Origin: a virus
DNA length: 37,249 nucleotides
Reading direction: 5' to 3' (one strand)
Virus record (IMG/VR): IMGVR_UViG_3300023109_002024
Coordinates: 1 to 37,249 of that record
This document shows positions 2,771 to 37,249 of the stretch, piece after piece (the first letter of the stretch is position 1; every line of letters begins with the position of its first letter). A program made the translations under genes and the position numbers. The notes beneath the pieces are model-generated. The model searched no databases. It was not told where the DNA came from and saw only the letters and a program-made list of their open reading frames with translations.

Positions 2771-3164
2771 AACTTTCTGCTATTAATTTTTTAAACTTTG
2801 TTGTACTCCAACCGTGGTCTCTGTTAAGAAAATGAATAGGTATTTTTAAATTATCACCTGTAAAAGGTTTTTCTTTATAATCGTCACCTAAAAATCTTAA
2901 ATCGAATTCACCAATTTTAAGTAAATCATATAGTTGCTCTTCGTAAGTATACCTTATAACGTCGTCAACATATTTTATACTTTCTAATAATTCCTTTCTT
3001 TCGTCTGGTGAAAGTATAGGTTTAAGTTTGTGGGGTCTTTCTATTGACGGGTCTGTATGAAGTAGTACTGTTAGTGAAACACAATGTTGATTCATTTCCT
3101 TGAACATCTTCACATACCCTGGGTGTATTACATCAAAATTTCCTGCTATAACTCCTTTAATCAT
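2751..3164 (-). CDS. TagD/RfaE2-like nucleotidyltransferase with HxGY in place of HxGH
   Basis: This 137-residue protein has the same fold as its downstream neighbour but is closer to TagD in plan. It has GNFDVIHPGY at the N-terminus, a SPDERKELL helix, FLGDDY near residue 92, and a C-terminal GWSTTKFKK segment (S120, T121, T122) matching the ISTT motif that binds the nucleotide phosphates in TagD. The second histidine of the catalytic HxGH motif is Tyr17. That would weaken a classical mechanism, so the protein may be a changed enzyme or a partner subunit for the neighbouring intact copy. Its first bases overlap the membrane protein gene by 8 bases. Family is likely; activity and substrate are unknown. 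Confidence 0.72.
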   Translation of the reverse strand: MIKGVIAGNFDVIHPGYVKMFKEMNQHCVSLTVLLHTDPSIERPHKLKPILSPDERKELLESIKYVDDVIRYTYEEQLYDLLKIGEFDLRFLGDDYKEKPFTGDNLKIPIHFLNRDHGWSTTKFKKLIAESYERSNS

Positions 3165-3513: not shown

Positions 3514-4538
3514 GATACTGTAGTTAATCCTCTAAAGTTTTCCAACCAACTTTCGGTGTTTTTAGTTATACCTTCTATCTTATCTTGATCTAAGTGGTGT
3601 AAAAAAGCTCCTGACTGTAAATCAGGTATGGTGCTGTTCAGTACGTCCATTACGTACTTCTTTTCTTTTTCGTCTAGAGTAGATACATGTAGGTCCATTA
3701 TCTCAAAATTACGTACTACATCATCCCAACTGTGCAATATTTTAGCAAAGATTTTTTTTGCTTTTTTATCTTCAAGTTTAGATTCACATAAGTCCCAAAC
3801 GTCTTGTAGTGAGGAATTTTCATCGTGTGTAAATTTACTCCATTCTGATAGTATAGTTTTAATGCCTAACCCTTTTACACCTTTAAGGTTGTCTGAACTA
3901 TCACCTGTTAGAGCTTTTACTATATTGTAGTTTTGGGGTAGAACACCTATTTCATCTTTTACATTGTCTATTGTGAAAGTTTTCTTTTTTATAGGTGCAT
4001 ATACTTCAACTGTGTCATCAACTAATTGTAAAAAATCTTTATCAGAGGATACTATTGTACATTTTTTTACGCTTGATACAGAAGCTCTTTTAGCTATATA
4101 CGCTATAACATCGTCTGCTTCTAATTTTTCAATCATTAACTGATGTATTGGTAAACATTCAACATACTCCTGTACTCTGAATAGCTGGTTGATTAGTGCC
4201 TCTGTTTCTTCTGCTTTAGTGTCGTAAAGTCCCCAATGTGTTATTCGTGAAGTAGCACGTTGTGCTTTATAGTTAGGGTCTATATTTTGCCTATTTCCAG
4301 AACCACCTTTGCCGTCCCAAACTATCACAACCCTTGTTGGATCAAATATTCTAGTTACATACCCTAAAGAGCGAAGAAAACCCACCAGACCTCCAATATG
4401 GGTGCCAGTGGGATTCATCGCTTTGAGCAGTGAGAAACTACGAATTAACATATTCATAGCGTCTACGACCAAGATATGATCGTTCAAAGCTCGGGGTGGG
4501 GTTTCTTTTAAATTACTTAGTATGTCGTCGTACGCCAT
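3510..4538 (-). CDS. rnh: 5'-3' exonuclease / RNase H of the FEN (T4 Rnh) family
   Basis: This 342-residue structure-specific 5' nuclease is expected to remove RNA primers and flaps from lagging-strand fragments. The acidic metal-binding residues of the family are present: D26 in VVDAMN, D75 in VWDGKG, the E140/D142/D143 cluster in LEADD, D166 and D168 in SSDKDF, and D213 and D216 in TGDSSDN. A helix-hairpin-helix like GVKGLGIKT segment follows (about 220-229). It starts one base inside the stop of the 2OG oxygenase gene (TAATG). The nearby polymerase-like protein lacks a 5' nuclease domain, so this separate enzyme would supply that activity. The family is certain; the name rnh is given by analogy with T4. 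Confidence 0.9.
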   Translation of the reverse strand: MAYDDILSNLKETPPRALNDHILVVDAMNMLIRSFSLLKAMNPTGTHIGGLVGFLRSLGYVTRIFDPTRVVIVWDGKGGSGNRQNIDPNYKAQRATSRITHWGLYDTKAEETEALINQLFRVQEYVECLPIHQLMIEKLEADDVIAYIAKRASVSSVKKCTIVSSDKDFLQLVDDTVEVYAPIKKKTFTIDNVKDEIGVLPQNYNIVKALTGDSSDNLKGVKGLGIKTILSEWSKFTHDENSSLQDVWDLCESKLEDKKAKKIFAKILHSWDDVVRNFEIMDLHVSTLDEKEKKYVMDVLNSTIPDLQSGAFLHHLDQDKIEGITKNTESWLENFRGLTTVS

Positions 4539-5041
4539 TATATTTTATCTTTTTTACCTTCATTGTCTGTCCAACCAATAATACTGTACCTAACACCGGA
4601 TGTAACTTTATTTACTTTATGTTCTATGCTAGAATCAAAAATTATTCCTTCACCTGTATTTAGTTTAAATGGGTGTTCTATTTCATTTTGCCTTAATACT
4701 AATTCACCGCCTGTGTAGTCTTGAGGTTTGATACCAATACAAATAGTGTGTTTTCTCCACCGGTTGGTATCGTAGTGGTAAATAAAATGATCCCCTACAT
4801 CGTATTTCAATAGGTTCAGTACACGTACAGTTAAAGATGTAATATCTTGTATACTTTCTTGCACTTGTTTGAAAACCTCAGGGTGATGCTCAAGATTATA
4901 TTGTTTACTGCTTCTCAATGACTTGTCTACACTAGTGATACCTGTAGAACGGTCTATATTTTTACTATGCCTCCAATGATGTTCTGATAGTAGTATATCA
5001 TCTATAGTAGATGTATCTACCATTTGGAGCTTAGTATACAT
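4538..5041 (-). CDS. 2-oxoglutarate/Fe(II)-dependent oxygenase (prolyl 4-hydroxylase-like)
   Basis: The 167 residues match the double-stranded beta-helix core of the P4H-like oxygenases. Iron ligands H89 and D91 lie in YHYDT, and the distal H141 in EHKV. R151 in VRYS is placed to bind 2-oxoglutarate, and the protein ends in the typical IIGW strand. A TGGEL turn lies between the HxD and the distal histidine. These enzymes hydroxylate protein side chains, nucleobases or small molecules; many T4-like marine phages carry one, without a known target. It is translationally coupled on both sides by one-base TAATG overlaps, between uvsX and the 5' nuclease. That placement hints at a job in DNA metabolism or base modification, but this is inference. 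Confidence 0.85.
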   Translation of the reverse strand: MYTKLQMVDTSTIDDILLSEHHWRHSKNIDRSTGITSVDKSLRSSKQYNLEHHPEVFKQVQESIQDITSLTVRVLNLLKYDVGDHFIYHYDTNRWRKHTICIGIKPQDYTGGELVLRQNEIEHPFKLNTGEGIIFDSSIEHKVNKVTSGVRYSIIGWTDNEGKKDKI

Positions 5042-6111
5042 TAATCTAACAAATTAGGAGATATTGGTGTTTCTTCTAAATCTCCTTCTTCGATCAAATC
5101 AAAATCTAACGTACCGACTAACTTTAACCAGTGGTCTTTATGAGCATCTTTATATTTATCGATCTCTCTTTTGTCGTCTGGTATAAAACCGTGGGCAGTC
5201 ATAACTACTCTACCTCTTGATTGAACTCCACCAATATGGTTCTTTTCAATCTGAACGTTAGTTCTTTTAGCAAACTCTACTTGCATACCGTTCTTGATAG
5301 CCTTGATCTTTGAAGTACCAGGATTAGTAATATTACCGAAAGTAACAACTAAAGTAGAGTCATACCACATAGACATTCCACCTTTGTTCTGTAGCTTAGG
5401 TTGACCCATTGGTGATTCAGGTTTCTGAGTCCATACTTTATTAATAGCAACTAATGTATTAGTATAGGGTGAATTCTCTTTTCTAGATAATAAAATCTTC
5501 TGATTAAGATTATTACCAAATTGAGTAGACATAGCTCCTGCATTCCATTCATTATTGTTCTTGTTAGAACGTACTGAAAGATCACAAGGTACTGATCCTA
5601 TACTGTCCCAAAAGAAACACATATCATAAGGTAAGTTACCTTTAGCTTGTTCGTCCATAAGATCAGCAATATAAACTGCTACATCTTCAATAGTGTTAAG
5701 TTGACCTCTATCTGCATATAAGAAATGTCCTTCGTAATCGGTTACGTTACCGTTCTCGTCTTTCACTTCTTCAAATTGTAGGCCCATTTCTTTAGCATGG
5801 TCCCATGACCATTTCATCTCAGTAATAATAAAAACCGGGAGAATGCCCATGTTTTGAGCATTCACCGCAGCTTCAAGTAGGGCAGTTGTTTTACCCGTAT
5901 CACTATGTCCACGCAATAGAGTGATGTGTCCGGTAGGAATACCGGGTAGAGAGGTAATGTCTTGAAAGGCTTGAGATAGTGGTATCCATCCTTGTTCTTT
6001 AAACTTTACTGAAGCATTAGAGAAACCTTTCTTCTTTTTGAAATTTGATAAGTTGAATGACTTACGTACTGCAGCAGTTGCTTTAGCTTGTACTTCTTTT
6101 TTCTTCGTCAT
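5041..6111 (-). CDS. uvsX: UvsX-type RecA-like recombinase
   Basis: This is an ATP-dependent strand-exchange protein that forms filaments on single-stranded DNA and drives recombination-dependent replication in T4-like phages. It has 356 residues. A basic N-terminal tail rich in lysine precedes the core. Walker A is GHSDTGKT at 68-75, and Walker B ends in FFWDS with D169. A TGGEL-free, UvsX-like central region contains the glycine-rich QNKGGMSMWYD segment that may correspond to a DNA-binding loop. The C-terminus is acidic (EEGDLEE). The gene follows gp32 and the small glycosyltransferase-like gene and overlaps the oxygenase gene by one base. The ATG start has an AAAAACAG-type leader and no Shine-Dalgarno sequence. 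Confidence 0.9.
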   Translation of the reverse strand: MTKKKEVQAKATAAVRKSFNLSNFKKKKGFSNASVKFKEQGWIPLSQAFQDITSLPGIPTGHITLLRGHSDTGKTTALLEAAVNAQNMGILPVFIITEMKWSWDHAKEMGLQFEEVKDENGNVTDYEGHFLYADRGQLNTIEDVAVYIADLMDEQAKGNLPYDMCFFWDSIGSVPCDLSVRSNKNNNEWNAGAMSTQFGNNLNQKILLSRKENSPYTNTLVAINKVWTQKPESPMGQPKLQNKGGMSMWYDSTLVVTFGNITNPGTSKIKAIKNGMQVEFAKRTNVQIEKNHIGGVQSRGRVVMTAHGFIPDDKREIDKYKDAHKDHWLKLVGTLDFDLIEEGDLEETPISPNLLD

Positions 6112-22215: not shown

Positions 22216-22482
22216 TTAAGAAGCTGTAAATTCTCCTGTTTTAATATCAATAGAACCGTTACCGTATTTATCTTCTAATAATTTAGCAACAGAACTTTCT
22301 TGTTGTTCGAGTTCAGATAAAAAGTTTTCTGCATTCTCTAAACGTTTTTCTAAAGTTATTTCTGCTAACTTTATTTGTCCTAACTCTATTAAAAGTTTGT
22401 TTCTATTTACCTGGGTGGTTTCAAGTTGTTTTATCTCTTCTTCTGTAAGTTTCACAGATTTTTTACTTTCTTGTTTTGCCAT
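22216..22482 (-). CDS. Small coiled-coil protein, unknown
   Basis: The 88 residues are highly charged and helical. From about residue 10 to 70 leucine, isoleucine and valine recur in heptad spacing (for example IKQLETTQVNRNKLLIELGQI), ending in LSELEQQESSVAKLLEDKYGNG. This is a clear coiled coil. There is no cysteine, signal peptide or membrane segment. The start overlaps the end of the dehydrogenase gene by 20 bases, so it is the last member of the glycan cassette by translation coupling. Such short coiled coils often serve as multimerisation or chaperone factors; a link to the sheath gene just downstream is equally possible. Function unknown. Confidence 0.72.
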   Translation of the reverse strand: MAKQESKKSVKLTEEEIKQLETTQVNRNKLLIELGQIKLAEITLEKRLENAENFLSELEQQESSVAKLLEDKYGNGSIDIKTGEFTAS

Positions 22483-23632
22483 AATGTATAACTTTAATAT
22501 TTGATTTAGTTTTGAATGATCTCCATGGATCTACTACTACAGAACCTTCTGGAAAATTATAATCGTGATGTTTACCCATATGTCCTAATAGGTAAACTGC
22601 TTTTATTGGTTGTACTGGGTCGTATGTTACTTTTTTAGCTGAACCGTATGATTCACAGTAGTGTCCTACTAATATAGAAGATGAACCGTCTTTATAGTGT
22701 ACGTCTGGTTTGTAAGCTTCTCCTAATATAACAATAGGTAAATTAGCTTTATCTGATTCTATAACAAGTCTGGTTGCCATATTTTTAGCTTGCTTCTCTC
22801 TTGCTTCCATTATAGCATCAAATAAGTCGTAACCTAATCCTAACTCTTCAGCCATGTACCTCAATGCTATATTATCTCTTGGATGACATCCTCCTCCATC
22901 ACCCATGCCTGCTTTCATGTAAGCTGGTCCTAATATACGGTAAGTAGATCTCTCTAATGCACCAGTTACTACGTCAACATCCATATTCCCTCCTTTTTCA
23001 GCAACATCTTGTATCATGTTTACTAATGCTACTTTAGTAGATATAAATGTGTTGTAGAATATCTTAATTGCTTCTGCTTCATCCCATGTACCTACTTCAT
23101 ATCTTGTACCTTCTGTGATAAAGGTTTCATAGAACTCTAACAATAGTTTTGCATCTCCAGTAGTAGATCCATCTTCAGTCCCTACTATAATCATTTCTGG
23201 ATTAACCATATCCCACTTTACTGTACCCATTGCTATTAAGTAAGGGTTGTAAATGAATCTACCATTTGGTATTTTATCTATAAACTCTCTTCTTATAGTT
23301 CCAGGTAGAACAGTAGATATAAGTACAATAAGTTGGTCTTTATTTACGTGTTTATTTACTTCATCTAACACGTCACTAACTATAGTATAGTCGAAATCTT
23401 TATTAGGTAAATGAGATGTTGGGTATCTACCATCATAGTCTGGGTCATGAGGAGTAGGTACTGCTATAAATATAAGTTCACGATCTTGACATGCGTCTTC
23501 AATCGTAGGTACCATTTTAAAGTTTTCAGGAGATACTTCTATTACATCGTAACCTATAACTTCATGTTTTTCTGCCATAACTTCGGCAGCATCTTTACCG
23601 AGTTTCCCAACTCCAATAAAACCTATTTTCAT
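22463..23632 (-). CDS. UDP-glucose/GDP-mannose dehydrogenase family enzyme
   Basis: The 389 residues match the NAD-dependent nucleotide-sugar 6-dehydrogenases, which oxidise a UDP- or GDP-hexose to the uronic acid. The Rossmann motif GVGKLG lies at 7-12. The central helix has K190, N194 and K200 (EAIKIFYNTFISTK). The catalytic cysteine C249 sits in GGGCHPRD, equal to the GGxCxxKD active site of the family. A C-terminal third domain follows, with LGEAYKPDVHYKDGSS close to the canonical 'G.ayK......R.Sp' pattern, although an arginine is replaced. The sugar specificity cannot be read. It overlaps the SGNH gene by four bases (ATGA). It is the main precursor-making enzyme in the cassette. Confidence 0.88.
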   Translation of the reverse strand: MKIGFIGVGKLGKDAAEVMAEKHEVIGYDVIEVSPENFKMVPTIEDACQDRELIFIAVPTPHDPDYDGRYPTSHLPNKDFDYTIVSDVLDEVNKHVNKDQLIVLISTVLPGTIRREFIDKIPNGRFIYNPYLIAMGTVKWDMVNPEMIIVGTEDGSTTGDAKLLLEFYETFITEGTRYEVGTWDEAEAIKIFYNTFISTKVALVNMIQDVAEKGGNMDVDVVTGALERSTYRILGPAYMKAGMGDGGGCHPRDNIALRYMAEELGLGYDLFDAIMEAREKQAKNMATRLVIESDKANLPIVILGEAYKPDVHYKDGSSSILVGHYCESYGSAKKVTYDPVQPIKAVYLLGHMGKHHDYNFPEGSVVVDPWRSFKTKSNIKVIHYGKTRK

Positions 23633-24440: not shown

Positions 24441-25934
24441 TTATATAATAGGTTTGGGCTGTAGGTATATATCATCAGGTGTGTACATATCGTAATATAG
24501 CCTCTTATGTTTCTTGTTTATTCTTTGACCACTCATAAACACGTTAAAGTTATGTCGAAGTATAGGTTCAAAATCTTCCATATAACTGTTTAACTCTTCC
24601 ATTGGAGTTTCGGCTATTTTAATCATTGTATCAAAAAGTCTTTTTAACCTTTCTGCTATACTTACGTCCTCATCATAACTTTCATCCCAAAATTTATCGA
24701 AAGTTTTATACCCCATTTTTTTTAGGACCCTTAGTGTGCCAGGGTTACCAAAAATAATAAATGGTTGTGCTGTATAAAAAGGTCTATATGTTTTTTCACT
24801 TAAAAATATTTCCTCAGAAGGTCTTTGATGAGTCTCTATAGTGACGTTCACAAGAGTATCCATATGAATCACTGGGTTTAATTCTGATGCCCAGTTAAAT
24901 TCTGGGTTGTGTAGATCACAACTATGTCCGCTAACAAAATCAAAATTACTACTTAACCAATTGACTACATCTTTACCAAGCTCTAAATGTTTAACTAACT
25001 CTAAACAATGGTGTTTTTCTGAACCGTATGGGTTGTGTAGACTAGAGTATGTATTTTCCTTTAGTACTGGAGTTGTTTGCACTTTATGAAAAATTGCAGC
25101 TCTTTCTCCTGAAAATCTTCTTGCTACAGCACTTAATTTTTTGGTATGCTGGTAGTTAATTTTGTGATCTAAATAATCAAAAAACTGTTCATAGTGATAC
25201 TTTAGTTCGTGAGGATAAAGTTTAGGTCGTTTTGAAAACCATGGTCTATCTTCAAAATCAGTACTTGGTAGTATTTGAAATCTATTTTTTTCTAAAAGTG
25301 ATTTTTTTTCGTATTTACTACATAGTACCTCGAAATTTTGATTTGCACTCTCAACTAAAAAGTTAGTTTTGTTAAGGTTGTGCTTTTTAGCAAAATCATT
25401 AAACCATTTTATGTCAGAATCTTTATATAAAAATCCTTCTGCATCTTGATAAATTAAAATTTTAGCTTTTCCTTTTGATATATACTCTAATAAGTCTTGA
25501 GGTAACGTTACTTTATCAAGATCAACATCGGGTAATTGGTGATTAAGTATAGGAATAGGTACATAGAACTTAATGTCTCTTTTGATAAGTTCTGTATACT
25601 CTAACCTTACGTGGTGGTAGTACCTGTTGTCTACACCGTACTTTGACCATCTAAGTGAATTAGCTATATTATCCTCGAGGTTATTAAATTTTTCTTGCGA
25701 AATAGGAAATTTAGCGTGTATTTTGTTTTCGATCTCTTCAACTGTATAGTTCCTGAAAATATATTGAGGATAAACTGTTTTTAAGAATTCTTTATTGTCG
25801 TATAGTACGGGTAAAAATTCAGTATACATTTGACAATACCTGTCAGAATATATTTCTTTATCATGATTACATCTAAGGTCGTTACCTTTAACCAATCCTG
25901 CTTTATACCCTAAGTATATCTTTTTCTTATTCAT
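24441..25934 (-). CDS. Putative glycosyltransferase, GT-B-like
   Basis: The 497-residue protein has no clear family, but the region of about 360-420 looks like the donor-binding domain of fucosyltransferase/exostosin-like GT-B enzymes. It contains VNVTIETH, then LSEKTYRPFYTAQPFIIFGNPGTL, then GYKTFDKFWDESYDE, in the usual order of a Glu-Lys pair, a 'PF..fG' turn and a 'tF...iDEsYD' ending. An earlier ARRFSGERAAIF segment is also typical. The N-terminal half is mixed and unassigned. The ATG at 25934 overlaps the stop of the radical SAM gene in the sequence ATGAATAA; a TTG six bases earlier would add two residues. The acceptor is unknown, but the neighbours argue for glycan assembly. Confidence 0.6.
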   Translation of the reverse strand: MNKKKIYLGYKAGLVKGNDLRCNHDKEIYSDRYCQMYTEFLPVLYDNKEFLKTVYPQYIFRNYTVEEIENKIHAKFPISQEKFNNLEDNIANSLRWSKYGVDNRYYHHVRLEYTELIKRDIKFYVPIPILNHQLPDVDLDKVTLPQDLLEYISKGKAKILIYQDAEGFLYKDSDIKWFNDFAKKHNLNKTNFLVESANQNFEVLCSKYEKKSLLEKNRFQILPSTDFEDRPWFSKRPKLYPHELKYHYEQFFDYLDHKINYQHTKKLSAVARRFSGERAAIFHKVQTTPVLKENTYSSLHNPYGSEKHHCLELVKHLELGKDVVNWLSSNFDFVSGHSCDLHNPEFNWASELNPVIHMDTLVNVTIETHQRPSEEIFLSEKTYRPFYTAQPFIIFGNPGTLRVLKKMGYKTFDKFWDESYDEDVSIAERLKRLFDTMIKIAETPMEELNSYMEDFEPILRHNFNVFMSGQRINKKHKRLYYDMYTPDDIYLQPKPII

Positions 25935-27228
25935 CTTCAAATAAACCTAAATCTATGAGTTCTTTAAATGTCTCTTTATAATTAGTTGGTCTAAGTTTAT
26001 CTAAGTTTGTTAGGTATTCTTTAAGTTCAGGTAAACGGTGGGACCCGTCTGAACTGTTCATCATATCTATATATGCTTGTAAGTTCTCATACACTAACTT
26101 ATCTTTATACTCAACTATATGTTTTTGTAGTTTTTCAGTTATGGCTGCTTTTACTTTTTTCGGTAATACATTAGGATTTAAAAACTCAGGATAATGTACT
26201 ACACCGGAAAAAATGTAAGCTCTTAATGGATCATCATCCGACCACCCTATACGGTAAAAATATTGATCTTCAACCCATTTTACAAAATCTGGTGTGTACC
26301 ATAAACTTAGGTTAGTAGTTGTAGATAGTATACACAACCTTGTGTTAGGTGCACACTCTTTATCGAATTTATGAAGATTCTTTTCTAAAACATCGAAGTA
26401 TGAAGGATATCTTAAGTACCTATTTACATCTTTAAAACTATCCAAAGAAAAATACAATGTAATAAAATTAAATTCTTTCCACAAATCTACCAACTCTTGA
26501 TCGTATATAGTTCCATTAGTGTGGTATGAAATGTCAATATTTTTAGATGAACCGTTCTCAACTAACTTCTTTATTAACTCTTTGTGTTCTTTTATATAAA
26601 AAGGTTCTCCTCCTGCAATAATCATATGGCGAATATTTTTACCATTATCAATTAATGACTGGGCGAATGAATCTTTTTTATACCACTCGTAATCTTCACG
26701 TTTATAGTTATCTTGCTTTTGTTGAAATATTCTTTTAGCTCCTCCATCGTTATCACCAAGCCTTGTCATTTCGACTAACTTGTCGTTATCACCAACCCAC
26801 TTACTACTGTCTTGAGGTTGGCACATAATACACTTGAGGTTACAGGTATTACCTAACCTAAAGTCTGTACTAATAAGATTAAAAGGAATAGTCCCGTCTT
26901 CTTCAGTTTTAGACACAATCTCCTCGATTACTTTAGAGGTTAGTTTATCTGTCCATTCTTTATTCTGATTCATTCTGTAACTAGTACCTCCATTAGATTC
27001 TTCTTTAAAACAAAACGAACATGTACGTGGTTTTTTACCTTGTAACATTTCCACTCTAACTCCTTTATAGTAATCAGAATTAACTATTTCAGGAAGACTC
27101 ATACTGTTAAGGTTTACTTCTTCTGGAGTCTCAGTAGCCATACAACATATTGGTGATCTTCCGTTAGGAAATGATGCCATATGTATCCATGGTAGTACAC
27201 AGAAAGTATCTGTTGGTAGTTTATTCAT
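25927..27228 (-). CDS. Radical SAM protein with N-terminal twitch-type cysteines (copy 3)
   Basis: The 433-residue protein carries the radical SAM cluster motif CNLKCIMC (C129, C133, C136), which binds a [4Fe-4S] cluster and SAM to make a 5'-deoxyadenosyl radical, and GGEP near 206-209. Before it lie extra cysteines: C10 in FCVLPW, C28 and C29 in a CC pair, and C70 and C73 in CSFC. This is the plan of N-terminal twitch-domain radical SAM proteins, where the extra cysteines hold an auxiliary cluster. The substrate class is not known; related enzymes act on peptides or sugars. It is the last of three such genes in this operon and follows the 440-residue copy with an 8-base ATGAATAA overlap. The ATG is preferred over a TTG six bases upstream. 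Confidence 0.85.
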   Translation of the reverse strand: MNKLPTDTFCVLPWIHMASFPNGRSPICCMATETPEEVNLNSMSLPEIVNSDYYKGVRVEMLQGKKPRTCSFCFKEESNGGTSYRMNQNKEWTDKLTSKVIEEIVSKTEEDGTIPFNLISTDFRLGNTCNLKCIMCQPQDSSKWVGDNDKLVEMTRLGDNDGGAKRIFQQKQDNYKREDYEWYKKDSFAQSLIDNGKNIRHMIIAGGEPFYIKEHKELIKKLVENGSSKNIDISYHTNGTIYDQELVDLWKEFNFITLYFSLDSFKDVNRYLRYPSYFDVLEKNLHKFDKECAPNTRLCILSTTTNLSLWYTPDFVKWVEDQYFYRIGWSDDDPLRAYIFSGVVHYPEFLNPNVLPKKVKAAITEKLQKHIVEYKDKLVYENLQAYIDMMNSSDGSHRLPELKEYLTNLDKLRPTNYKETFKELIDLGLFEDE

Positions 27229-28543
27229 TTTCAAAATAGTTAGGGTTGTGGTCGTACATAGCTTGGTAAAGTTCTGAACAAGATTTCTTAAAACTTTGCT
27301 TTCTATATTTATCTAACGAATTAGTGTAGTTTAAAAACGATTTGATTTTGTCATCGTTGTGTTCTTTAGATTCAGTTAGATAATTTAATATTTTTTCAGT
27401 ACTTGTTCTAGTCATATTATCTAAGTTAGTCTTGTCTAATGTCTTATAATATGCATAAAGTTTATTTTGAGCTTTTTCTCTTATTTCATAGGGTAAAATT
27501 TCTGCTTTTAGTAGTACTGGATGTGTGTTTAATAACCAGTCAATATGTATATTTCGGTTGTATTTTTTCTTAACTGATTCGATATATTCTATTAGTTGAC
27601 CTGCATTAAAAATATTATATACCTGAAATACTGGTGATATACCTAAGTGTATATTTTTAAATGATGCATACAGTTCAAAATTTTTGGATACAGCGTTCCA
27701 TTTTGCTGGTTGTCTAATATATTCGTTCATAGCTCCAAATCCATCTAAACTTCCGTTAATATCTACTTGATCGAATTGAGATATGAGTTCTATATATTTC
27801 TTATTTCTATTAGTCAGGTTAGTATTAAAGAAAGGTATAATGTCTGGTCTACCTTGGTCTAAACACTCTTGTAGAAATCTAAAATTGCCTTGAATCATAG
27901 TAGGTTCACCACCGGTAAAATATACTTTTTTAAGACTAGGAATAAAATCTACTATATCATCCCACAAAATATCTGCTTCAAACCATTCCTGTTGTTCATC
28001 TAATCCATGTGCTTGTCCTCCATATTCTTCAACCCATACTTCTCTATATTTTTTATCTTGAGACCAAAGTTGTTTGTTTTCTTTATCTATTTGAGAGGAA
28101 TTCCACGGGTTGCACATTCTACATTTAAGATTACATAAATTACCTAAACGTAAATCTAAGTAAACTGGGTTATCTAATAATTTGTAGTCGTTAGCTTGAG
28201 CTTCTTGTAAAAGTTTTGTTAGTCCTGCTCTTCCTATTTTATTAATCCATTCAGAGGTCATGCTTACTCTTGGACCATAGTTTGTAAAGTCTTCCTCTTT
28301 TACACATCTACTACATCCAGGTACCTCTTCACCAGCAATCATTTTACGTCTGGTTTCTTTAATTGTTTCACTGTTCCAACCATCTTTAAGTGTATCTTGA
28401 TTTATTGATAAATCAAATCCATCTTCTTGTAATAAATCTTCAGCAAAACAACAGTATCTCATATTACCACCAGAGGTAACGTTTACACCAACAAATGGCA
28501 TTGCACAATAAGAGTCTGAGTTAAAAAATTTCTGTCTAGCCAT
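27221..28543 (-). CDS. Radical SAM protein with N-terminal twitch-type cysteines (copy 2)
   Basis: This 440-residue relative of the downstream copy has the same order of sites: C13 in YCAMPF, the CC pair C31-C32, C77 and C80 in CSRC, then the radical SAM motif CNLKCRMC (C137, C141, C144), with GGEP at 211-214. The middle SQFDQVDINGSLDG segment matches the core barrel strand after the GGEP motif. It is not a recent duplicate: the two copies agree mainly at motifs. The start forms TAATG with the end of the GT-A gene. Iron-sulphur chemistry in the host cytoplasm is expected, with host reductants. A protein or sugar-modifying function tied to the glycosyltransferases is inferred from neighbours only. 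Confidence 0.87.
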   Translation of the reverse strand: MARQKFFNSDSYCAMPFVGVNVTSGGNMRYCCFAEDLLQEDGFDLSINQDTLKDGWNSETIKETRRKMIAGEEVPGCSRCVKEEDFTNYGPRVSMTSEWINKIGRAGLTKLLQEAQANDYKLLDNPVYLDLRLGNLCNLKCRMCNPWNSSQIDKENKQLWSQDKKYREVWVEEYGGQAHGLDEQQEWFEADILWDDIVDFIPSLKKVYFTGGEPTMIQGNFRFLQECLDQGRPDIIPFFNTNLTNRNKKYIELISQFDQVDINGSLDGFGAMNEYIRQPAKWNAVSKNFELYASFKNIHLGISPVFQVYNIFNAGQLIEYIESVKKKYNRNIHIDWLLNTHPVLLKAEILPYEIREKAQNKLYAYYKTLDKTNLDNMTRTSTEKILNYLTESKEHNDDKIKSFLNYTNSLDKYRKQSFKKSCSELYQAMYDHNPNYFENE

Positions 28544-29382
28544 TATATTCTAATAATATATTCTGTTAACATATTCCAGTGAGGGTAATCATTATAATCA
28601 ATATATGAATTATTTTTCATTTTGACTATCTTATACTCAGGTTTATTAACATCTATTTTAAATTTATTTTCTTTTATGGCATCGTATAGTTTCTTATACT
28701 CCCACCAGTAGGTATATTCTTCTTTGGTTTCTGAAACATCTTTCACTCTTTGTATGCAAGATGAATCCCACTTAAAATGATGTACCTGTGTAAATACCTT
28801 TTGGATAGGCATACGTTTTGGATGATGTCTACCCCAACTGTTGGTTTGTTCATCAAAATAAGCATAGTGTTGACCTGATGTGATCTTTTGTGAACCTTTT
28901 GTTAACGTGACCTTATTAGGGCAAGCACCAGACATTGGATATCTAAAATATCCTGCGTACGGAAAGGCTTTAAGTATATCTGTGTCTTTATGTACTTCAG
29001 GAAATGTACCATTTTCACCTATTCTGTCTAGAAACCCTCCTGTTACAAAGGTATATTTATTTTTCTCGCAGTCTTTTATTATCTCTTCTATATCATAAGG
29101 GTATGCATGAAATTCATCATCGTCAGCTATCAACCACCAGTCATTAGGTTTGGTTTCTTTCACTGTATTGTAGATTTCAGTTACTCTATCCCAATTGTAC
29201 TTCGGTTCAGTAAATACCATGAATGGTTCAATACCTAACTCATTTACTTGTTGCACAATATTATCGTCTTCTCCTTGTTTGTATACACATACGTACATCT
29301 TATCAACTTTATCCTCATAGTATTTTAACATGTGAGGAAGAAGGTGTGTATTACTTCCAACTACTGTAACTAAATTTAACAT
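28543..29382 (-). CDS. Glycosyltransferase, GT-A fold (family 2/92-like)
   Basis: The 279-residue protein begins with LNLVTVVGSNTHLLPHMLKYY, the 'no-travel' first strand typical of family 92-like and other GT-A enzymes. It reaches the acidic metal motif DDDE at 87-90 in WLIADDDEFH, which would bind the divalent ion and the nucleotide-sugar. Two later histidine-containing segments, HYAYFDE and VHHFKW, lie where the acceptor site usually is. There is no membrane segment, so it acts in the cytoplasm. The gene is coupled by TAATG both to the radical SAM gene before it and to the one after it. It is therefore embedded between two of the three radical SAM enzymes, which suggests a shared pathway. 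Confidence 0.8.
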   Translation of the reverse strand: MLNLVTVVGSNTHLLPHMLKYYEDKVDKMYVCVYKQGEDDNIVQQVNELGIEPFMVFTEPKYNWDRVTEIYNTVKETKPNDWWLIADDDEFHAYPYDIEEIIKDCEKNKYTFVTGGFLDRIGENGTFPEVHKDTDILKAFPYAGYFRYPMSGACPNKVTLTKGSQKITSGQHYAYFDEQTNSWGRHHPKRMPIQKVFTQVHHFKWDSSCIQRVKDVSETKEEYTYWWEYKKLYDAIKENKFKIDVNKPEYKIVKMKNNSYIDYNDYPHWNMLTEYIIRI

Positions 29383-30428
29383 TAAATGGCAGGTTTATTA
29401 CCCAATTCGGGAAAGTTAGTTGTTTTGTTTCTTAAAGGTCTAATTTTTTCTAATTCATTTAAAAAATCACCATACAACTCATGTTCAGGTTCAAATACTG
29501 CCTTAGTTTTAAATTCTTCAGGACTATACGTACCCCAATCGGTAAGTTTATTGTAAAATACAGTCCAATCAGCATTAGGAGCGTACTTATCAAATATTCC
29601 TTTGAGTAATTTATGAAAATCAAACATTTCTTTGTAGTTGTCATCTGAAACAACCATTGAAAAGTAAAAATTATTCACATGTGGAAGAGCAACTATGAAT
29701 TTTAAATTTTCCATTAATTTGTCCCAATCTCCTCCTCTTCTTACAACATCGTACGTACTTTTGGTAGCAGCATCAATACTTATCTCACATGTTTTAACTA
29801 GATGGTGTATTTTGTGTAACTTACCCCAAAATTGTTCAGTCCAAAGATTGCCGTTAGTGTGTATGTGTATATGATGCAGTTTAGGGTACCTACTTGGATC
29901 TAAATTCATCAAAAATTTCCTGTATGAGTTTGAAAAAAATGGGTCGGCAGTACCACTTAGGTAAAGGCTTTCTACTTCCTCGTTAATTTCCTCATCAACT
30001 TGTCTCATTTTTTCTTCTACTTCTTCTCTTTCTTTACCATGTACATTGATAAACTCAACTCTGCAGGAAGGGCATGCTAAATTACAACTTCTGTCGAAAC
30101 AAAAATTTACCATTGATATTCTTGTTTCTTCTCTAGTTTTTTTAATATTTTCTGGAGTTCTTTTTATAAAGTCCTTTGGTAGAACGTTGTCTTTTAATCC
30201 GGCAAGTTTAGGACAATGTGTTTCACTACATCGAGAGTAACTTCCATCTAAAATACTTTCACGGATATCGTTTGCTTTATCAGAATAGTAGTTATCTTTA
30301 ATACTATCTGTTAACTTAATATTATTATCTTCTGTAAGCCAGTTATTACAGCACAAGCGTTGCTCATTATCAAATACCTCTGTGTAGGTAAAAGGAGTCA
30401 TACATATAAAATCTTCTTTTTTGAGCAT
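29382..30428 (-). CDS. Radical SAM protein with N-terminal twitch-type cysteines (copy 1)
   Basis: This 348-residue protein is the shortest of the three. Its cysteines follow the same plan: C9 in FICMTPF, the C26-C27 pair, C67 and C72, then CNLACPSC (C115, C119, C122). The usual GGEP is replaced by GTAD at 159-162, a variant also found in radical SAM enzymes. The later CEISIDAATKSTYDVVRRGG segment has the typical SAM-barrel strand followed by the 'R.GG.w..L..NL' pattern of SPASM/twitch enzymes. It lies between the galactosyltransferase-like gene and the GT-A gene, with one-base TAATG overlaps on both sides. Substrate unknown. Confidence 0.86.
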   Translation of the reverse strand: MLKKEDFICMTPFTYTEVFDNEQRLCCNNWLTEDNNIKLTDSIKDNYYSDKANDIRESILDGSYSRCSETHCPKLAGLKDNVLPKDFIKRTPENIKKTREETRISMVNFCFDRSCNLACPSCRVEFINVHGKEREEVEEKMRQVDEEINEEVESLYLSGTADPFFSNSYRKFLMNLDPSRYPKLHHIHIHTNGNLWTEQFWGKLHKIHHLVKTCEISIDAATKSTYDVVRRGGDWDKLMENLKFIVALPHVNNFYFSMVVSDDNYKEMFDFHKLLKGIFDKYAPNADWTVFYNKLTDWGTYSPEEFKTKAVFEPEHELYGDFLNELEKIRPLRNKTTNFPELGNKPAI

Positions 30429-31825
30429 TACAATTCTATGTTAATCATTTTAGCATTAGGGGTTAAGGTTTCCTCACTTATAAGTTTGTACTTTACTTGC
30501 TTTATACCATCTTCTTTATATTTCCACGAACCCTTTTGCATTTCTAAAACGTACCTTCTTTCGTTCTTAGCAGTAGTTTCTCCTTTAGCCCACTTACCGT
30601 TAACTAAACCTTCATCTACATGAGGTAGGCAGTCATACATACCTTTTCTTCTGTGAGGAATAATAGAATTAGGTACTTTTAAGTCTTCTGTTATAACCTC
30701 TAAATTATGTTTTTCTAGTTTGTCTATATCTAATTTATAAATAAGACCTTCTAAAGGATATTCTTTATGTAGTGATTTTACTTCAGTTGAAGTTAAAGCA
30801 TAATCCCATACTTTTACATCTGCTATATCCCCTTTAAAAAATTTACCCGGGTTAATGTCATCTAAATTTGGTGAAGTACCTAAGTAAATTTCCTTAAGAC
30901 CGTATTTTTTTAACCTACCTGTATATTTCCAAGGTGATTCACTACCTGTACCTGCTTTACTATCAACTTCTGTACCATTAAGATAGAAGTGAGATAGCTG
31001 TAATTTTTCATCTATAACTACTGTTACCCAACTCCATTGGTTGTCATATCTCTTTAACCACATATAGTTATGTTGATTAAAACTATTCCAATACTGCAAG
31101 GATAATGCTCTAGAATTATTAAATGATATACCGTAATCATAACCAGGTACTCTAATAATAGGAAACTCAACATATGGAGTATCTTTTGCACCTATAAGAT
31201 GTGGTGCTACTTTGTCTGGTATTTGAAAAGATCTACATAAAACTGAAATAGTATGGGATTTAGAGTTAAAATCTTTTAGTTCTCTGGATTTCTTTATTTT
31301 AGCCCAAGAATCAACACCGTTGAATTTGAGATGCTTTTTTTTATTAAAAGGAATATCAAGATAAGTATCATTAGTTAAACCTTCTAAATGACATCTCCAG
31401 AATAGATCATCATCTTCCATTCCCCAATCCCAGTATTCGTTGGAATAACCATTGGTCATTTCGACTTGTTCTTTAGAAAATAAAACTGCACCACCGAAAT
31501 ATTCATGATATTTTAACCTGTAGTCCATCTGAGAAATATTGGTGGCAAGATGTATTGGGTGTTTGTCGGGAAATGAATAATCTGTATCGCCTTCAGGTAT
31601 CATATCAATATCATGCCATACTATGTAATCGCAACCGTCTTCAAAAGCATGTTTAGCGGCTATGTTTTTAGTAGCACCTCTATTAAAAAGTTTATCATCT
31701 ACTTGATGACAGAAATACATCTGAAAATCAATACCATGTTGTTTTAAGTGTTTACCTACTCTTGGTATAAACTTGTTGAGGTGTTCTTCTCTATTCCTGT
31801 ATGGTACACAAACTCCTAGTTTCAT
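30428..31825 (-). CDS. Beta-1,4-galactosyltransferase-like protein with internal LamG domain (copy 2)
   Basis: The first ~150 residues have the GT7 family signatures in order: VPYRNREEHL at 7-16, FNRG near 47-50, HDIDM at 71-75, FGG at 110-112 and WGMEDDDLF at 134-142, with the EDDD motif that binds UDP-sugar and metal in animal beta4GalTs. A LamG/concanavalin-like domain follows from about 166 (LKFNGVDSWAKI) to 365. After it come IIPHRRKG, with a histidine in the place of the metal-binding His of beta4GalT1, and EDGIKQVKYKL, like the family's C-terminal DGLnsL.Y segment. The LamG domain therefore looks inserted within the catalytic domain. It overlaps copy 1 by four bases (ATGA). It could be an enzyme or a virion lectin. 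Confidence 0.82.
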   Translation of the reverse strand: MKLGVCVPYRNREEHLNKFIPRVGKHLKQHGIDFQMYFCHQVDDKLFNRGATKNIAAKHAFEDGCDYIVWHDIDMIPEGDTDYSFPDKHPIHLATNISQMDYRLKYHEYFGGAVLFSKEQVEMTNGYSNEYWDWGMEDDDLFWRCHLEGLTNDTYLDIPFNKKKHLKFNGVDSWAKIKKSRELKDFNSKSHTISVLCRSFQIPDKVAPHLIGAKDTPYVEFPIIRVPGYDYGISFNNSRALSLQYWNSFNQHNYMWLKRYDNQWSWVTVVIDEKLQLSHFYLNGTEVDSKAGTGSESPWKYTGRLKKYGLKEIYLGTSPNLDDINPGKFFKGDIADVKVWDYALTSTEVKSLHKEYPLEGLIYKLDIDKLEKHNLEVITEDLKVPNSIIPHRRKGMYDCLPHVDEGLVNGKWAKGETTAKNERRYVLEMQKGSWKYKEDGIKQVKYKLISEETLTPNAKMINIEL

Positions 31826-33219
31826 AATTTTACCTCTAAATGATTATAATTACCATTATTAAAACTATTACGTAATTTGTACTCAATGGTAGATAGGCCA
31901 TCTTTTTTATAATCTGATCTATTTTCATAGTGTTTACGTAGGTATCTAAGTTGGTTTTCTCTACTAGCCCAGTTAACCCAGTATCCATCTCTATACCCGT
32001 TTTCATCATGCGGTAATACCTTAAACTTACCATTTCTACGATGTGGTATTGGCTTTTCTATATCTTTCTGTATGGGTGTATATACCTGCTTGCAGTTATG
32101 GATATATCCGTCATTATCTCCTACTAAATCTTTTAACAAATTTCCGTTTACGTTTAACATTTCATAATAGTGTTTAATACTGGTACTGTAATCTTTGTTA
32201 AAGAGGGTAAAGTCAGTAGATTTAGTAAGATTTATAGACTGTTCATCGTTTAAGTTAGAATCAAAAATAGCAAACCTATCAACTACACCTTTAAACCAGT
32301 TATTTTTTTCTTTTCTATTAGGATCTCCTACTCCTAAATACAACATAGGACTTTTATGTATTGGTGACAACTTATCAAAGGTATTACTACCTACTTTTAC
32401 TCCGTTTACATATAGGGTAGCAACTAAAGGTTGGGCTGTATTATTAAAAGTTACTAAAGCGTTTACGTGACCTCGGGGAAAAAGTTTACTTGTAATAGAA
32501 ATACTACTCAAATCCTTTTTCCAAAATTGAAAGTAAATATCAAAAAATGAATTGACAGCTAATGTAGTGTCAAACCCAGGTATACTAAAAATTGAATTAT
32601 TATCAGTTATTTCATCTACTTTACTGTTAACTCTAGTCAAGTCAAACGATGTATATATTGAAAAATCTCTTACTGATTTTAGAGTGTTTTTAATCCCAAC
32701 AAAACTATCCTTCCCGTTAAACTGTAATCCTATGTTATTTCTAGTGTATTGAGGCAGTAGTTTAGAGTCAATACTTATTCCACTTTCTAAACAACGTAAA
32801 AATAAATCATCATCTTCGAATCCCCATCCAAAGTAACTATTAGAGTAACCGTTTATTTGTCTGTATAGGTTACAAGGAAAAAGAGTTACACCACCGAAGT
32901 AGTTATCAAATAAATCTCTTTTAGTATCTGGTGGTAATTCTAAATCAGTAATTAAATGTATGGGGTAGTCACTATATGAGTAATCAGCAGATATGGGTAA
33001 CATATCTACATCGTGTAATACAACGTAATCACAACCAAGTTCTTCTGCTTTTATAAAACCTATATTAAGTAACTTACCTCTATTAAACTCTTGGTCGTCG
33101 GTTTGTTCAACTACTATAAGTTCATAAGGAAAAGTAATAAAATTTACAAGTGTTTTTTTAAATTTAGAGAGTTGGTTAGGTCTATTTTTGTACGGAACTA
33201 TTATCCCCAGTTTTTTCAT
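31822..33219 (-). CDS. Beta-1,4-galactosyltransferase-like protein with internal LamG domain (copy 1)
   Basis: This is a diverged tandem relative of the downstream gene, also 465 residues. Signatures are PYKNR at 9-13, FNRG at 45-48, HDVDM at 69-73, FGG at 108-110, GWGFEDDD at 131-138, and the late PHRRNG at 392-397 and KDGLSTIEYKL at 439-449. Between them lies a LamG-like domain (about 165-345) starting with LQFNGKDSFVGI. The two copies share the motifs but little else, so duplication is old. There is no signal peptide. The ATG overlaps the end of the small upstream gene by 38 bases; the AGGAG just before it lies within that gene's codons and may be chance. Galactose specificity is not proven. 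Confidence 0.8.
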   Translation of the reverse strand: MKKLGIIVPYKNRPNQLSKFKKTLVNFITFPYELIVVEQTDDQEFNRGKLLNIGFIKAEELGCDYVVLHDVDMLPISADYSYSDYPIHLITDLELPPDTKRDLFDNYFGGVTLFPCNLYRQINGYSNSYFGWGFEDDDLFLRCLESGISIDSKLLPQYTRNNIGLQFNGKDSFVGIKNTLKSVRDFSIYTSFDLTRVNSKVDEITDNNSIFSIPGFDTTLAVNSFFDIYFQFWKKDLSSISITSKLFPRGHVNALVTFNNTAQPLVATLYVNGVKVGSNTFDKLSPIHKSPMLYLGVGDPNRKEKNNWFKGVVDRFAIFDSNLNDEQSINLTKSTDFTLFNKDYSTSIKHYYEMLNVNGNLLKDLVGDNDGYIHNCKQVYTPIQKDIEKPIPHRRNGKFKVLPHDENGYRDGYWVNWASRENQLRYLRKHYENRSDYKKDGLSTIEYKLRNSFNNGNYNHLEVKL

Positions 33220-33433: not shown

Positions 33434-34285
33434 CTATCCAACTACGTTCCAATCTATTTTTAATACATTTTTAATAACATTGTTAAGTACTGTGGATTCT
33501 TTTTCTAGACTATATCCTTTTTTGTTGTTTCTAATTTTAGGCTTTTCCATCCAGTAGTGTCTAAACGATAGGTTGTGTTCATCTGTTTTTATTAACCCCT
33601 TAACTTTTTCGGTGTATTTGTTTGATAAACAGTTATATTTTTTATCTAATAGGGGTATATAACTTATTTTATGTATGTCTAACAGGTGTTTAAGTAAAAG
33701 TTGTTCTGCTAAAATTAAATACTTGGAATTGGGAGCTTTTAACCTTGATAACTCTTGCATGAGCTCCAGACTAGTTTTAGCATAGTGTTGCATAAAGTTA
33801 ATGTCTGGAAAGTATAAAAAACTGCAATTTACAGCTTCTTGTTTGTATCTACTTAGTAAATGCTTAACCTTTTTTACGAAATGATCAGTTGGGGTAACAT
33901 AATAGTTTCGTCCATCTTCTATGTGGCTAACTATTACTTTATTTTTTTTGATATATTTTTCAAAACTAGTATATACAACAAAGTCATTATCCATTATAAT
34001 AGTTGGTTCATTTGATGTACGTAGTGCTTGAAGTTTAGAAGCTGCCCAAAATACTTTGAGATCTACTCCTACATTTCTTTTAAGTGTTATTTTTTCGTCC
34101 CACAATGTAGTTGCACCTAGATTGGTAATAACCTCATGAGTCATTTTATCGGCGTAAAGTACACAGTTGTGAGATGGATGATGCTTTTTCCATTGAATAA
34201 CAGATGCAAACATCATTAAAAAATCAAACTTATTATAAAAGGATTTTTTACCTTTTATATTTTCTAAAACCCAAATTGTTTTCAA
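33434..34285 (-). CDS. Putative GT-A glycosyltransferase
   Basis: This 283-residue protein is glycosyltransferase-like on the basis of order: a first strand with IWVLENIKG, an intermediate FWAASKLQALRT helix, and IIMDNDFVVYTSF with a DND motif at about 98-100 in the place of a DxD metal site. A later YFPDINFMQHY segment and SFRHYW near the end fit the acceptor half. The plan resembles that of the protein at 6112-6831, which also has an aspartate pair after an isoleucine run. The only in-frame start after a TAG stop is TTG at 34285. It sits between the fibre-type genes and the small cassette gene, 9 bases after the preceding gene. Substrate unknown. Confidence 0.6.
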   Translation of the reverse strand: MKTIWVLENIKGKKSFYNKFDFLMMFASVIQWKKHHPSHNCVLYADKMTHEVITNLGATTLWDEKITLKRNVGVDLKVFWAASKLQALRTSNEPTIIMDNDFVVYTSFEKYIKKNKVIVSHIEDGRNYYVTPTDHFVKKVKHLLSRYKQEAVNCSFLYFPDINFMQHYAKTSLELMQELSRLKAPNSKYLILAEQLLLKHLLDIHKISYIPLLDKKYNCLSNKYTEKVKGLIKTDEHNLSFRHYWMEKPKIRNNKKGYSLEKESTVLNNVIKNVLKIDWNVVG

Positions 34286-34294
34286 TAACTATTA

Positions 34295-34741
34295 TTATGT
34301 AAAGTAAGCGTAAAAATTTAGCTGTGATGTATAATCACTAACCGTTAGGGTTAGGTTGGCATTTGTACTTATTTGTGTACCTCCGCCTCCTGATGCAGTT
34401 CTCCACTCTGAAAAGTTATAAGGGTAGGTACCTGCTGCAGTTAACACTACTGAAGAATATACACTGTAATCAACATTCTTTATTACAATAGTACCAGTGG
34501 AAGTTCCCGATGAATAAGGGGTTGTGACTGAAACAGTCCCGTTTGCAGTAGCAATAACATTCCCGTAAAACCAACTTCTATTATAAATTTCACCGACACT
34601 TGCAGGATTACTAGCAGCTGGAAAAGAATCTGATAATACATCTGAAAGGTTAATATCAGTGTCATTTGTATAACCTTGATTGGACCAAGTATCAAATGTA
34701 CTGAAATCTATATTAGTTGTAGTGTACGTAAATACTGCCAT
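34295..34741 (-). CDS. Probable tail fibre or adhesin accessory protein
   Basis: The 148 residues are rich in threonine, serine, tyrosine and asparagine with little charge, a beta-strand type composition common in virion surface proteins. There is a tandem-like pattern of ANGTVSVTTPYSSGTSTGTIVIKN. It ends with YPYNFSEWRTASGGGGTQ and then ISTNANLTLTVSDYTS, which resembles the immunoglobulin-like repeats of phage fibres. No signal peptide is present. It starts one base inside the stop of the upstream gene (TAATG) and lies amid tail-fibre genes. The function as an adhesin tip or decoration is inferred from composition and position. Confidence 0.65.
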   Translation of the reverse strand: MAVFTYTTTNIDFSTFDTWSNQGYTNDTDINLSDVLSDSFPAASNPASVGEIYNRSWFYGNVIATANGTVSVTTPYSSGTSTGTIVIKNVDYSVYSSVVLTAAGTYPYNFSEWRTASGGGGTQISTNANLTLTVSDYTSQLNFYAYFT

Positions 34742-35346: not shown

Positions 35347-36126
35347 TTACTCTAAGTTATTTACTTTATTATTTAGTTCTTTTATTGCTTGAATTAAAAT
35401 AGGTATAAGTTTTTCATATCTAACAGCTTTATAACCGTTGTCTCTGGTTACTACTGCCTCTGGAGCTATCTTCTCTATTTCTTGTGCTATTACTCCTATG
35501 TCTGGTCCTTCATTTTCATGGTGATCATTTTTTACCCATTCATAGCTATATCCATGTATCTCTCCTAGTTTATCCAACCCGTCTAATATAGGAGTTATGT
35601 TAGACTTTAACCTTTCGTCTGATGTAGAGAATGCAGTGATATCACCGGTTACTTTAAGTGATCCACTTATTACAACAGAGTCTGATAGTTCGGTACTAAA
35701 CCCATCGATAACTTTGACTGAATTACCCATTCCATTACCATGAGAAGTACAATAATACTTTAAAGCCAATGGAGTATCGTAGCCAACGTGAAACTGTGTA
35801 TAAGCTCCTGTACTGCCTGGTGTTCCTGATGCAACTACTCCTGCTGTATGACTGGTGTCATTGGGTGTTCTAAAAGCAAGTGGATGACCTGTATTGGTAC
35901 TGTCTGATAAGTTAAATCTGTAAGTATGTCCTCTTTGTAGTGATAGTTTAGGAGCAGTAACACCATCTATCTGGTATTTATTACCACCGTCGTTTACCAC
36001 CTTTACTAATACTTCATCATAGGACCCGGAATAGTTTATTCCTTCAAAAGAACCAGAAAATGAACCTGTAAAGGCTCCACTAAAGTCATCTGCTGTACCT
36101 ATAGATGTTGGATTGTGTATTTTCAT
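35347..36126 (-). CDS. Tail fibre with cupredoxin-like domain and S74 autoprocessing chaperone
   Basis: This 259-residue fibre protein begins with a short GSFSGSF-type Gly/Ser repeat. A beta-sandwich at about 38-140 follows, with cupredoxin features: GHPLAF holds H81, and YYCTSHGNGMG holds C126, H129 and M133, the ligand order of type 1 copper proteins. The C-terminal ~90 residues are the S74 intramolecular chaperone. S169 and K174 in SDERLK form the cleavage dyad, followed by GVIAQEIEKIAPEAV, then VRYEKLIPILIQAI and a closing coiled coil. The chaperone should trimerise the fibre and cut itself off. It lies among fibre genes near the right edge. Copper binding is not proven. Confidence 0.82.
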   Translation of the reverse strand: MKIHNPTSIGTADDFSGAFTGSFSGSFEGINYSGSYDEVLVKVVNDGGNKYQIDGVTAPKLSLQRGHTYRFNLSDSTNTGHPLAFRTPNDTSHTAGVVASGTPGSTGAYTQFHVGYDTPLALKYYCTSHGNGMGNSVKVIDGFSTELSDSVVISGSLKVTGDITAFSTSDERLKSNITPILDGLDKLGEIHGYSYEWVKNDHHENEGPDIGVIAQEIEKIAPEAVVTRDNGYKAVRYEKLIPILIQAIKELNNKVNNLE

Positions 36127-36697: not shown

Positions 36698-37249
36698 TTA
36701 TAGTCCGAATCTTTTTCTTAATGCATTCCAATTTTGAGTAACATCTGCATCAGATTTTTGAGCACTATATATTTTTACATTATGTATTCTACCTCCGAAT
36801 TCATAACTCTGAGATGGGTGATCTTCTTTACCTAAGTAAATAGTATCTCTTGCATGTAGTGTAGTGTTGCCGGGATTAGTCGAAGCATAAGCTGTTTTCT
36901 TACTTCCATTGACCCATATGTCATAAGAACTGCCATTCCAATTTGCCACTATCTGGTAGGTACCTGCTGAAAAAGAGTCTCGTATGTAGGTAAGTCCAGT
37001 TGATTGGTAGTTTGCTCCCCAGAAAGCAATACTTTCATTAGTGGCTATACCTGTGTAGTTCCCAAAAGTAAATCCACCTGGATAGTCTCCTAAACCGAGT
37101 GGTGAGGCATAAGTACTATCTGAGTATGTACCTGAATCGATTCCTATATCTGATGTTAACCAAATTTCAACCATATAAGGAGTGTAACTTATACTAGTTT
37201 TAACTGCATAGTCATCAATACCATCTAAACTTAAACCACCTCCATGGGT
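36698..37249 (-). CDS. LamG (concanavalin-like) adhesin, 5' end outside the window
   Basis: The visible 183 residues begin in mid-gene: the reading frame stays open to the right edge, upstream of an internal ATG at 37174. The edge reads GGGLSLDGIDDYA, the usual 'fdGvdDyv' opening of a LamG_3-type jelly roll. Typical strands follow: MVEIWLTSD, IVANWNGSSYDIWVNG near the middle and a GRIHNVKIYSAQKSDADV ending with the closing 'R.YnraLsdaEv' type helix. LamG domains bind glycans or proteins and are common at the tips of phage fibres. Two more LamG domains occur in the galactosyltransferase-like proteins of this window. The gene lies at the 5' side of the fibre cluster. Confidence 0.82.
   Translation of the reverse strand, partial: THGGGLSLDGIDDYAVKTSISYTPYMVEIWLTSDIGIDSGTYSDSTYASPLGLGDYPGGFTFGNYTGIATNESIAFWGANYQSTGLTYIRDSFSAGTYQIVANWNGSSYDIWVNGSKKTAYASTNPGNTTLHARDTIYLGKEDHPSQSYEFGGRIHNVKIYSAQKSDADVTQNWNALRKRFGL

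Follow-up and report, generated by a model that had tools for sequence, protein, structure and literature searches.

The stretch of DNA described here, the 37,249 bases of the IMG/VR virus record IMGVR_UViG_3300023109_002024 (the window, in what follows), belongs to an uncultured tailed phage and carries on its minus strand two neighbouring genes, which we call p1 (A-type) and p2 (B-type). Their open reading frames (ORFs) overlap by 4 bp, and in both of them a complete LamG/pentraxin-like domain is nested inside a beta4GalT-like glycosyltransferase domain of family 7 (GT7; Table 1). This architecture, which a first-pass annotation had proposed for the tandem genes, is upheld by the homology of their C-terminal tails, by structural models and by a comparison with the LamG domain excised.

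Two tandem genes with a LamG domain nested in a GT7 fold

In the Pfam search, both proteins show the domain order GT7N, GT7C and Laminin_G_3, all above the curated cut-offs: Glyco_transf_7N (E 2.8e-16 in p1 and 9.7e-16 in p2), Glyco_transf_7C (E 2.7e-19 and 3.9e-15) and Laminin_G_3 (E 1.1e-12 and 1e-9; scores of 48.8 and 39.1 bits, the cut-off being 27.6). Sequence searches of the PDB matched the first ~150 residues to beta4GalT1 and beta4GalT7 (E 4e-27 to 2e-16), and the motifs that had been listed beforehand, from PY(R/K)NR to the DG segment of the tail, were all found in p1 and p2. The last ~100 residues of each protein gave no match in the Pfam search.

The origin of this tail was approached with a profile of p1 residues 384-465, built from 82 family members and searched against 1,758 ORFs of bacterial loci chosen through their N-terminal GT7 part (N-part). 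The profile matched 75 of the 77 ORFs having an N-terminal GT7 match, mostly uninterrupted GT7s, and two of the ~1,680 remaining ones (best E 0.13). Among the uninterrupted GT7s, the best match reached E 1.5e-9, while some are weak taken singly (E 0.01-0.7), and the match often starts 0-4 residues past the N-part, so that the ~230-residue insert is absent from these enzymes. When LamG was excised from the family profile, 221 of 236 columns aligned with 16 uninterrupted bacterial GT7s, reaching the C-terminus (hhalign); the excised version was used because the full family profile aligned correctly to residue ~155 only, and then strayed past the junction into LamG. The excised profile also aligned with Drosophila beta4GalT7 in a single stretch (1-221 to 51-255), and the LamG-containing profile gave, in the PDB comparison, a weak colinear tail match (5.2 bits) that stops close to the beta4GalT1 C-terminus. 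Joining both halves of the protein, as the first-pass annotation had suggested, thus results in a GT7 match that runs through to the C-terminus.

The AlphaFold models of p1 (mean pLDDT 91.6, pTM 0.84) and p2 (mean pLDDT 93.9, pTM 0.88) were compared with known structures through VIA-align, whose ranges are end points only. Residues 1-465 of p1 match beta4GalT1 180-398 with a Z of 27.1 (212 residues, 2.0 A; VIA-align 2), and residues 1 to 465 of p2 match the same range with a Z of 26.4 (208 residues, 2.2 A; VIA-align 2). Since the N-part has only ~160 residues and 208-212 were aligned, residues of the tail must be part of the match. The insert has the LamG/pentraxin jellyroll fold, with matches to PAPP-A, to pentraxins and to a carbohydrate-binding protein of Bacteroides (Z ~17-22). 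Foldseek aligned either the N-terminal ~152 residues or LamG alone, and the nesting was settled with VIA-align instead.

An alternative arrangement, where a truncated GT7 would be followed by LamG and an unrelated C-terminal domain, could draw on the missing Pfam GT7 match in the tail and on the weakness of its direct match to beta4GalT1 (those 5.2 bits). However, the tails of bacterial GT7s are matched in the expected place, with E values down to 1.5e-9, and the structural match is colinear from end to end, which leaves this arrangement with a minimal probability; barring a joint error of homology and models, the tail profile and the VIA-align matches contradict it, and we reject it. Neither a tail folded as a separate domain nor a tail lacking a GT7 profile match, the two outcomes named beforehand as contrary to the nesting, was observed. 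The characterised GT7 sub-type has an uninterrupted catalytic domain, which p1 and p2 do not keep; because LamG is inserted after residue ~160, they are a variant rather than standard GT7 members, that is, a variation of GT7 and not a new kind of system.

Catalytic site and inserted domain

Over 82 relatives (p1 numbering), residues R12, F47-N48-R49, D72, D74, W134, G135, E137 and D138 are invariant, and the Tyr preceding FGG is kept in 81. As the catalytic residues are essentially invariant, p1 and p2 are predicted to be active enzymes. The conserved Tyr, at the position of Tyr289 of beta4GalT1, suggests galactose as the donor. In both sequences the fold's first strand comes at the very start, which leaves no space for a signal peptide or a membrane anchor, so they are likely cytoplasmic enzymes.

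A different histidine from the one first proposed seems to complete the metal site. The first-pass annotation had assigned this role to the histidine of the PHRR motif (H391 in p1), but that position holds H in only 34 of the 82 relatives, Y in 23 and F in 13, between an invariant P390 and an invariant R392. The histidine of the LPH motif (H402 in p1, H404 in p2) fits instead: it is kept in 81/82 relatives, and its equivalent (H204 in L104) is invariant in 16/16 uninterrupted bacterial GT7s, where the motif RRxGxFxxLxH comes almost directly after the post-catalytic-helix strand. Because H391 varies, while H402 is conserved both in the family and in bacterial GT7s, H402/H404 is the probable metal-binding C-terminal histidine, which would correspond to His347 of bovine beta4GalT1.

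The LamG domain varies more than its host enzyme, with a mean identity of 48.5% in the A-type (79.5% for the GT part) and 34% in the B-type (60% for the GT part). A dense group of polar and aromatic residues (E220, R225, N236-N237-S238-R239, H252, Y254, W256, K258-R259-Y260, W264 and W266) is conserved in the A-type LamG, and the B-type has few conserved residues. As the cluster is conserved in the A-type only, the two LamG types may recognise different things. By our own mapping on predicted secondary structure, LamG would be placed at the start of the GT-A C-terminal tail. In GT-A enzymes, acceptor specificity lies in three hypervariable regions, the last of which is the C-terminal tail after beta8 (PMC7185993).

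Distribution and genomic context

The family patterns were confirmed in at least 522 related viral stretches of IMG/VR, most of them without a check for LamG. Seventy-nine viral loci were examined, a set biased towards close relatives because the best-scoring loci were taken. All 156 ORFs in these loci show the GT7 N-part, LamG and tail in nested order, and the p2-p1 tandem pair is present in 76 of the 79. Judging by the bins of the related contigs, these viruses appear to be mostly marine. No relative of p1, either whole or N-part, was found among cultured phages (tblastn, 50,697 records).

In the bacterial genome set, the majority of hits are uninterrupted GT7s. Such numerous bacterial relatives do not agree with the description of GT7 as an animal-type fold in the first-pass annotation, and no animal origin is implied. 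Nested GT7-LamG genes occur in contigs from metagenome-assembled genomes with a phage-like look (L077, L079 and L082 have the same cassette genes), but also outside any obvious phage context, as in a contig of a ~3.4-Mb bacterial genome record (L080, positions 3842-5428), where the neighbours are GT2 and ABC-transporter (exporter) genes; other bacterial cases are L081, close to L080, and the more distant L097. Given these bacterial contigs, the nested architecture is mainly, but not exclusively, viral. Other, distant GT7-like ORFs from genomes of the relatives (L147-L150) matched neither LamG nor the tail significantly.

The A and B types separate both in the tree of the GT part and in that of the LamG part, and this agreement fits a LamG insertion that would predate the A/B duplication. 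Several bacterial GT7s are placed beside the LamG group in the GT tree, where uninterrupted GT7s were positioned by their N-part only, with tail columns unaligned for them; the tree accordingly does not establish one common insertion event for every LamG-bearing member, L097 included.

Table 1. Features of the gene pair and its cassette (window coordinates)
Feature	Position	Strand	Evidence
p1, GT7 with nested LamG, 465 aa	30428..31825	-	Pfam, AlphaFold model, VIA-align
p1 residues 1-160, N-terminal GT7 part (PYRNR, FNRG, D72-x-D74, YFGG, WGMEDDD)	31346..31825	-	Pfam, PDB sequence search, family alignment
p1 residues ~161-387, inserted LamG/pentraxin-like domain and linker strands	30665..31345	-	Pfam Laminin_G_3; VIA-align to PAPP-A, Z 21.3 over 161-387
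p1 residues ~388-465, C-terminal GT7 part (PxR, LPH, N421, DG, C-terminal strands)	30431..30664	-	Tail profile, hhalign, VIA-align
p1 H402 codon, probable metal-binding C-terminal His	30620..30622	-	Conservation in family and bacterial GT7s
p2, paralogous GT7 with nested LamG, 465 aa	31822..33219	-	Pfam, AlphaFold model, VIA-align
p2 residues 1-160, N-terminal GT7 part	32740..33219	-	Pfam, PDB sequence search
p2 residues ~161-388, inserted LamG domain and linker	32056..32739	-	Pfam; VIA-align of 160-387 to 4dqa, Z 21.9
p2 residues ~389-465, C-terminal GT7 part with H404	31825..32055	-	Family conservation
UDP-glucose/GDP-mannose dehydrogenase-like protein	22463..23632	-	phrog_9148 E 3e-98; PF00984
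Twitch-domain radical SAM protein	25927..27234	-	NF033640 E 4.8e-105
Twitch-domain radical SAM protein	27221..28543	-	NF033640 E 2.3e-103
GT2-like glycosyltransferase	28543..29382	-	PF13704 just below cut-off
Radical SAM protein directly next to the end of p1	29382..30428	-	PF04055 E 7.7e-10
DUF6734 protein	33434..34285	-	PF20508 E 1.6e-12
Ser/Thr-rich protein, 148 aa, 30% S+T	34295..34741	-	Conserved neighbour, possible acceptor
Tail-fibre-like protein with Peptidase_S74 chaperone	35347..36126	-	PF13884 E 2.2e-17

Both genes sit in a cassette between tail genes. Following the minus strand, a tail-fibre-like gene (Peptidase_S74) and genes for two small proteins, one of them the Ser/Thr-rich protein, and a DUF6734 protein lead to p2 and p1, which are followed by genes for a radical SAM protein, a GT2-like enzyme, two twitch-type radical SAM proteins, two unknown proteins, a sugar-nucleotide dehydrogenase, and the tail sheath and tube. 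Among the relatives with sufficient flank, a radical SAM gene is found in 74/76, and among the loci with sufficient flank the GT2-like gene is present in 54/54, the DUF6734 gene in 46/54 and the gene of the Ser/Thr-rich protein in 45/54. Relatives of this last protein average 28% Ser and Thr, and that of the window (34295-34741) reaches 30%, against a window median of 12%; it is a possible acceptor of O-glycans.

Three radical SAM proteins lie beside glycosyltransferases in 25927-30428, and the relatives often have several copies. A 499-aa cassette protein (24441-25940) has relatives in 33/79 loci and no match in Pfam, PHROG or NCBIfam. At 36698-37249, running past the window end, there is a separate LamG protein, which resembles the virion structural family phrog_8510. 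Far from the cassette, two adjacent ORFs (2354-3164) match phrog_7878 (heptose-phosphate adenyltransferase-like) and are likely a tandem duplicate. By its tail sheath, Flavobacterium phage immuto (62%) comes closest among cultured phages, and a pelagiphage identity was dropped on this basis; immuto shares the downstream tail genes and carries a lysozyme and small hypothetical genes at the site of the cassette.

Proposed function and comparison with known systems

For enzyme activity, galactose donor, acceptor, LamG ligand and biological target alike, we infer the following scheme, to which we give a probability of roughly 0.62. The proteins p1 and p2 would be soluble, metal-dependent, inverting GT7 (beta4GalT)-type glycosyltransferases, most likely moving galactose from UDP-galactose. 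The LamG module, which follows the strand behind the WGxEDDD helix and precedes the one with the metal-binding histidine, would probably keep the acceptor, a glycan or glycoprotein, close to the active site; the enzyme may also, as the first-pass annotation had suggested, tether itself to its glycan. Acting together with the GT2-like, DUF6734, radical SAM and sugar-dehydrogenase proteins, p1 and p2 would assemble a glycan specified by the phage, either on tail proteins of the virion or at the surface of the host. Given the intact catalytic residues, an active transferase with a LamG-bound acceptor is the simplest reading. Two points weigh against it: the variability of LamG beyond that of the GT part fits a diversifying recognition, but equally a weak constraint, and the LamG fold is common to lectins, proteases and scaffolds, so the fold does not imply sugar binding. 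A bolder version is rather unlikely in our estimation; here, a glycan-binding LamG would retarget GT7 across a widespread viral pair, with p1, whose LamG is conserved, reading a fixed glycan and p2, whose LamG is diversified, reading varying ones, and the outcome would be a processive or virus-specific tail glycan coat, perhaps on the Ser/Thr-rich protein.

The strongest competitor, a minority possibility to be taken seriously, accepts an active GT7 and makes LamG a structural or oligomerisation module, for pentraxin-like assembly or for docking to a cassette partner or tail protein, rather than a glycan binder. The nearest folds include the oligomerising pentraxins and the LamG of PAPP-A, which is not a known lectin, the B-type LamG is poor in conserved residues, and the almost constant company of both paralogues would allow a heteromer; however, the A-type LamG conserves the sort of polar and aromatic set that a ligand site is expected to have, and the insertion falls in the tail that specifies the acceptor. 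Much less probable is a non-catalytic virion lectin built on the GT7 fold, which the first-pass annotation had entertained and for which no support was found. The cassette does adjoin tail-fibre genes and the separate LamG protein resembling a virion structural family, but invariant or nearly invariant catalytic and metal residues over 82 sequences are unexpected in a dead enzyme, and the conserved neighbours are biosynthetic enzymes; the dead lectin was rejected on the conservation of the catalytic residues. It seems similarly improbable that phage DNA, with hypermodified bases, is what p1 and p2 glycosylate, instead of surface glycans or proteins. Phage glycosyltransferases that modify DNA are known (literature cited in PMC12619734), but annotation with Pfam, PHROG and NCBIfam identified no base-modification gene beside the cassette, which is set among tail genes and includes a sugar-nucleotide dehydrogenase. 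Moreover, GT7 and LamG modules are not known to be linked to DNA.

The lectin modules of glycosyltransferases are usually appended at one end, whereas here a lectin-like module is embedded within the catalytic fold itself, past the catalytic helix and ahead of the metal-binding histidine; two paralogues retain this nesting over many uncultured viral contigs. With this pair, the evolution of acceptor specificity via domain insertion can be put to a concrete test, and attention is drawn to an undescribed phage glycan pathway beside tail-fibre genes.

In a limited, open-licence literature, no paper was found on this architecture or on LamG together with a glycosyl- or galactosyltransferase. The tail-fibre hypervariable region of pelagimyophages contains genes for glycosyltransferases, for UDP-glucose dehydrogenase and for radical SAM proteins, some of them close to tail-fibre genes, and a change of the host surface was proposed there; GT8 is named as the commonest family, and the terms laminin, lectin and galactosyl- are unmentioned (PMC7029224). 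Mycobacteriophages, too, are reported to bear glycans on their capsid and tail tube (work cited in PMC12619734). In terms of fold, the LamG/pentraxin family (Laminin_G_3; PAPP-A LamG, PTX3, CRP, 4dqa) matches the insert of p1 and p2 at only 9-18% identity. These domains are usually free-standing or appended, in secreted proteins. The polypeptide GalNAc transferases (GT27) are alike in principle, as GT-A enzymes with a lectin module that guides acceptor choice, but their lectin is C-terminal and ricin-type, and the enzymes are retaining.

The closest parallels are within GT7 itself. Both beta4GalT7 and beta4GalT1 (CAZy GT7; PDB 4irq, 3lw6, 1tvy) resemble p1 and p2 in the whole GT-A fold (Z ~26-27) and share with them the DxD, FGG, WGxED, C-terminal His, N and DG tail elements, at 27-36% identity, but they lack an inserted domain; the animal enzymes also have an N-terminal membrane anchor, whereas p1 and p2 start at the first strand. 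The uninterrupted bacterial GT7s (e.g., L104, L123, L112 and L128) have the tail closest to that of p1 and p2 (RRxGxFxxLxH...N...DGL), and their N-parts reach up to 49% identity to p1 (L084), but in these bacterial enzymes there is no LamG, and the N-part is joined directly to the tail.

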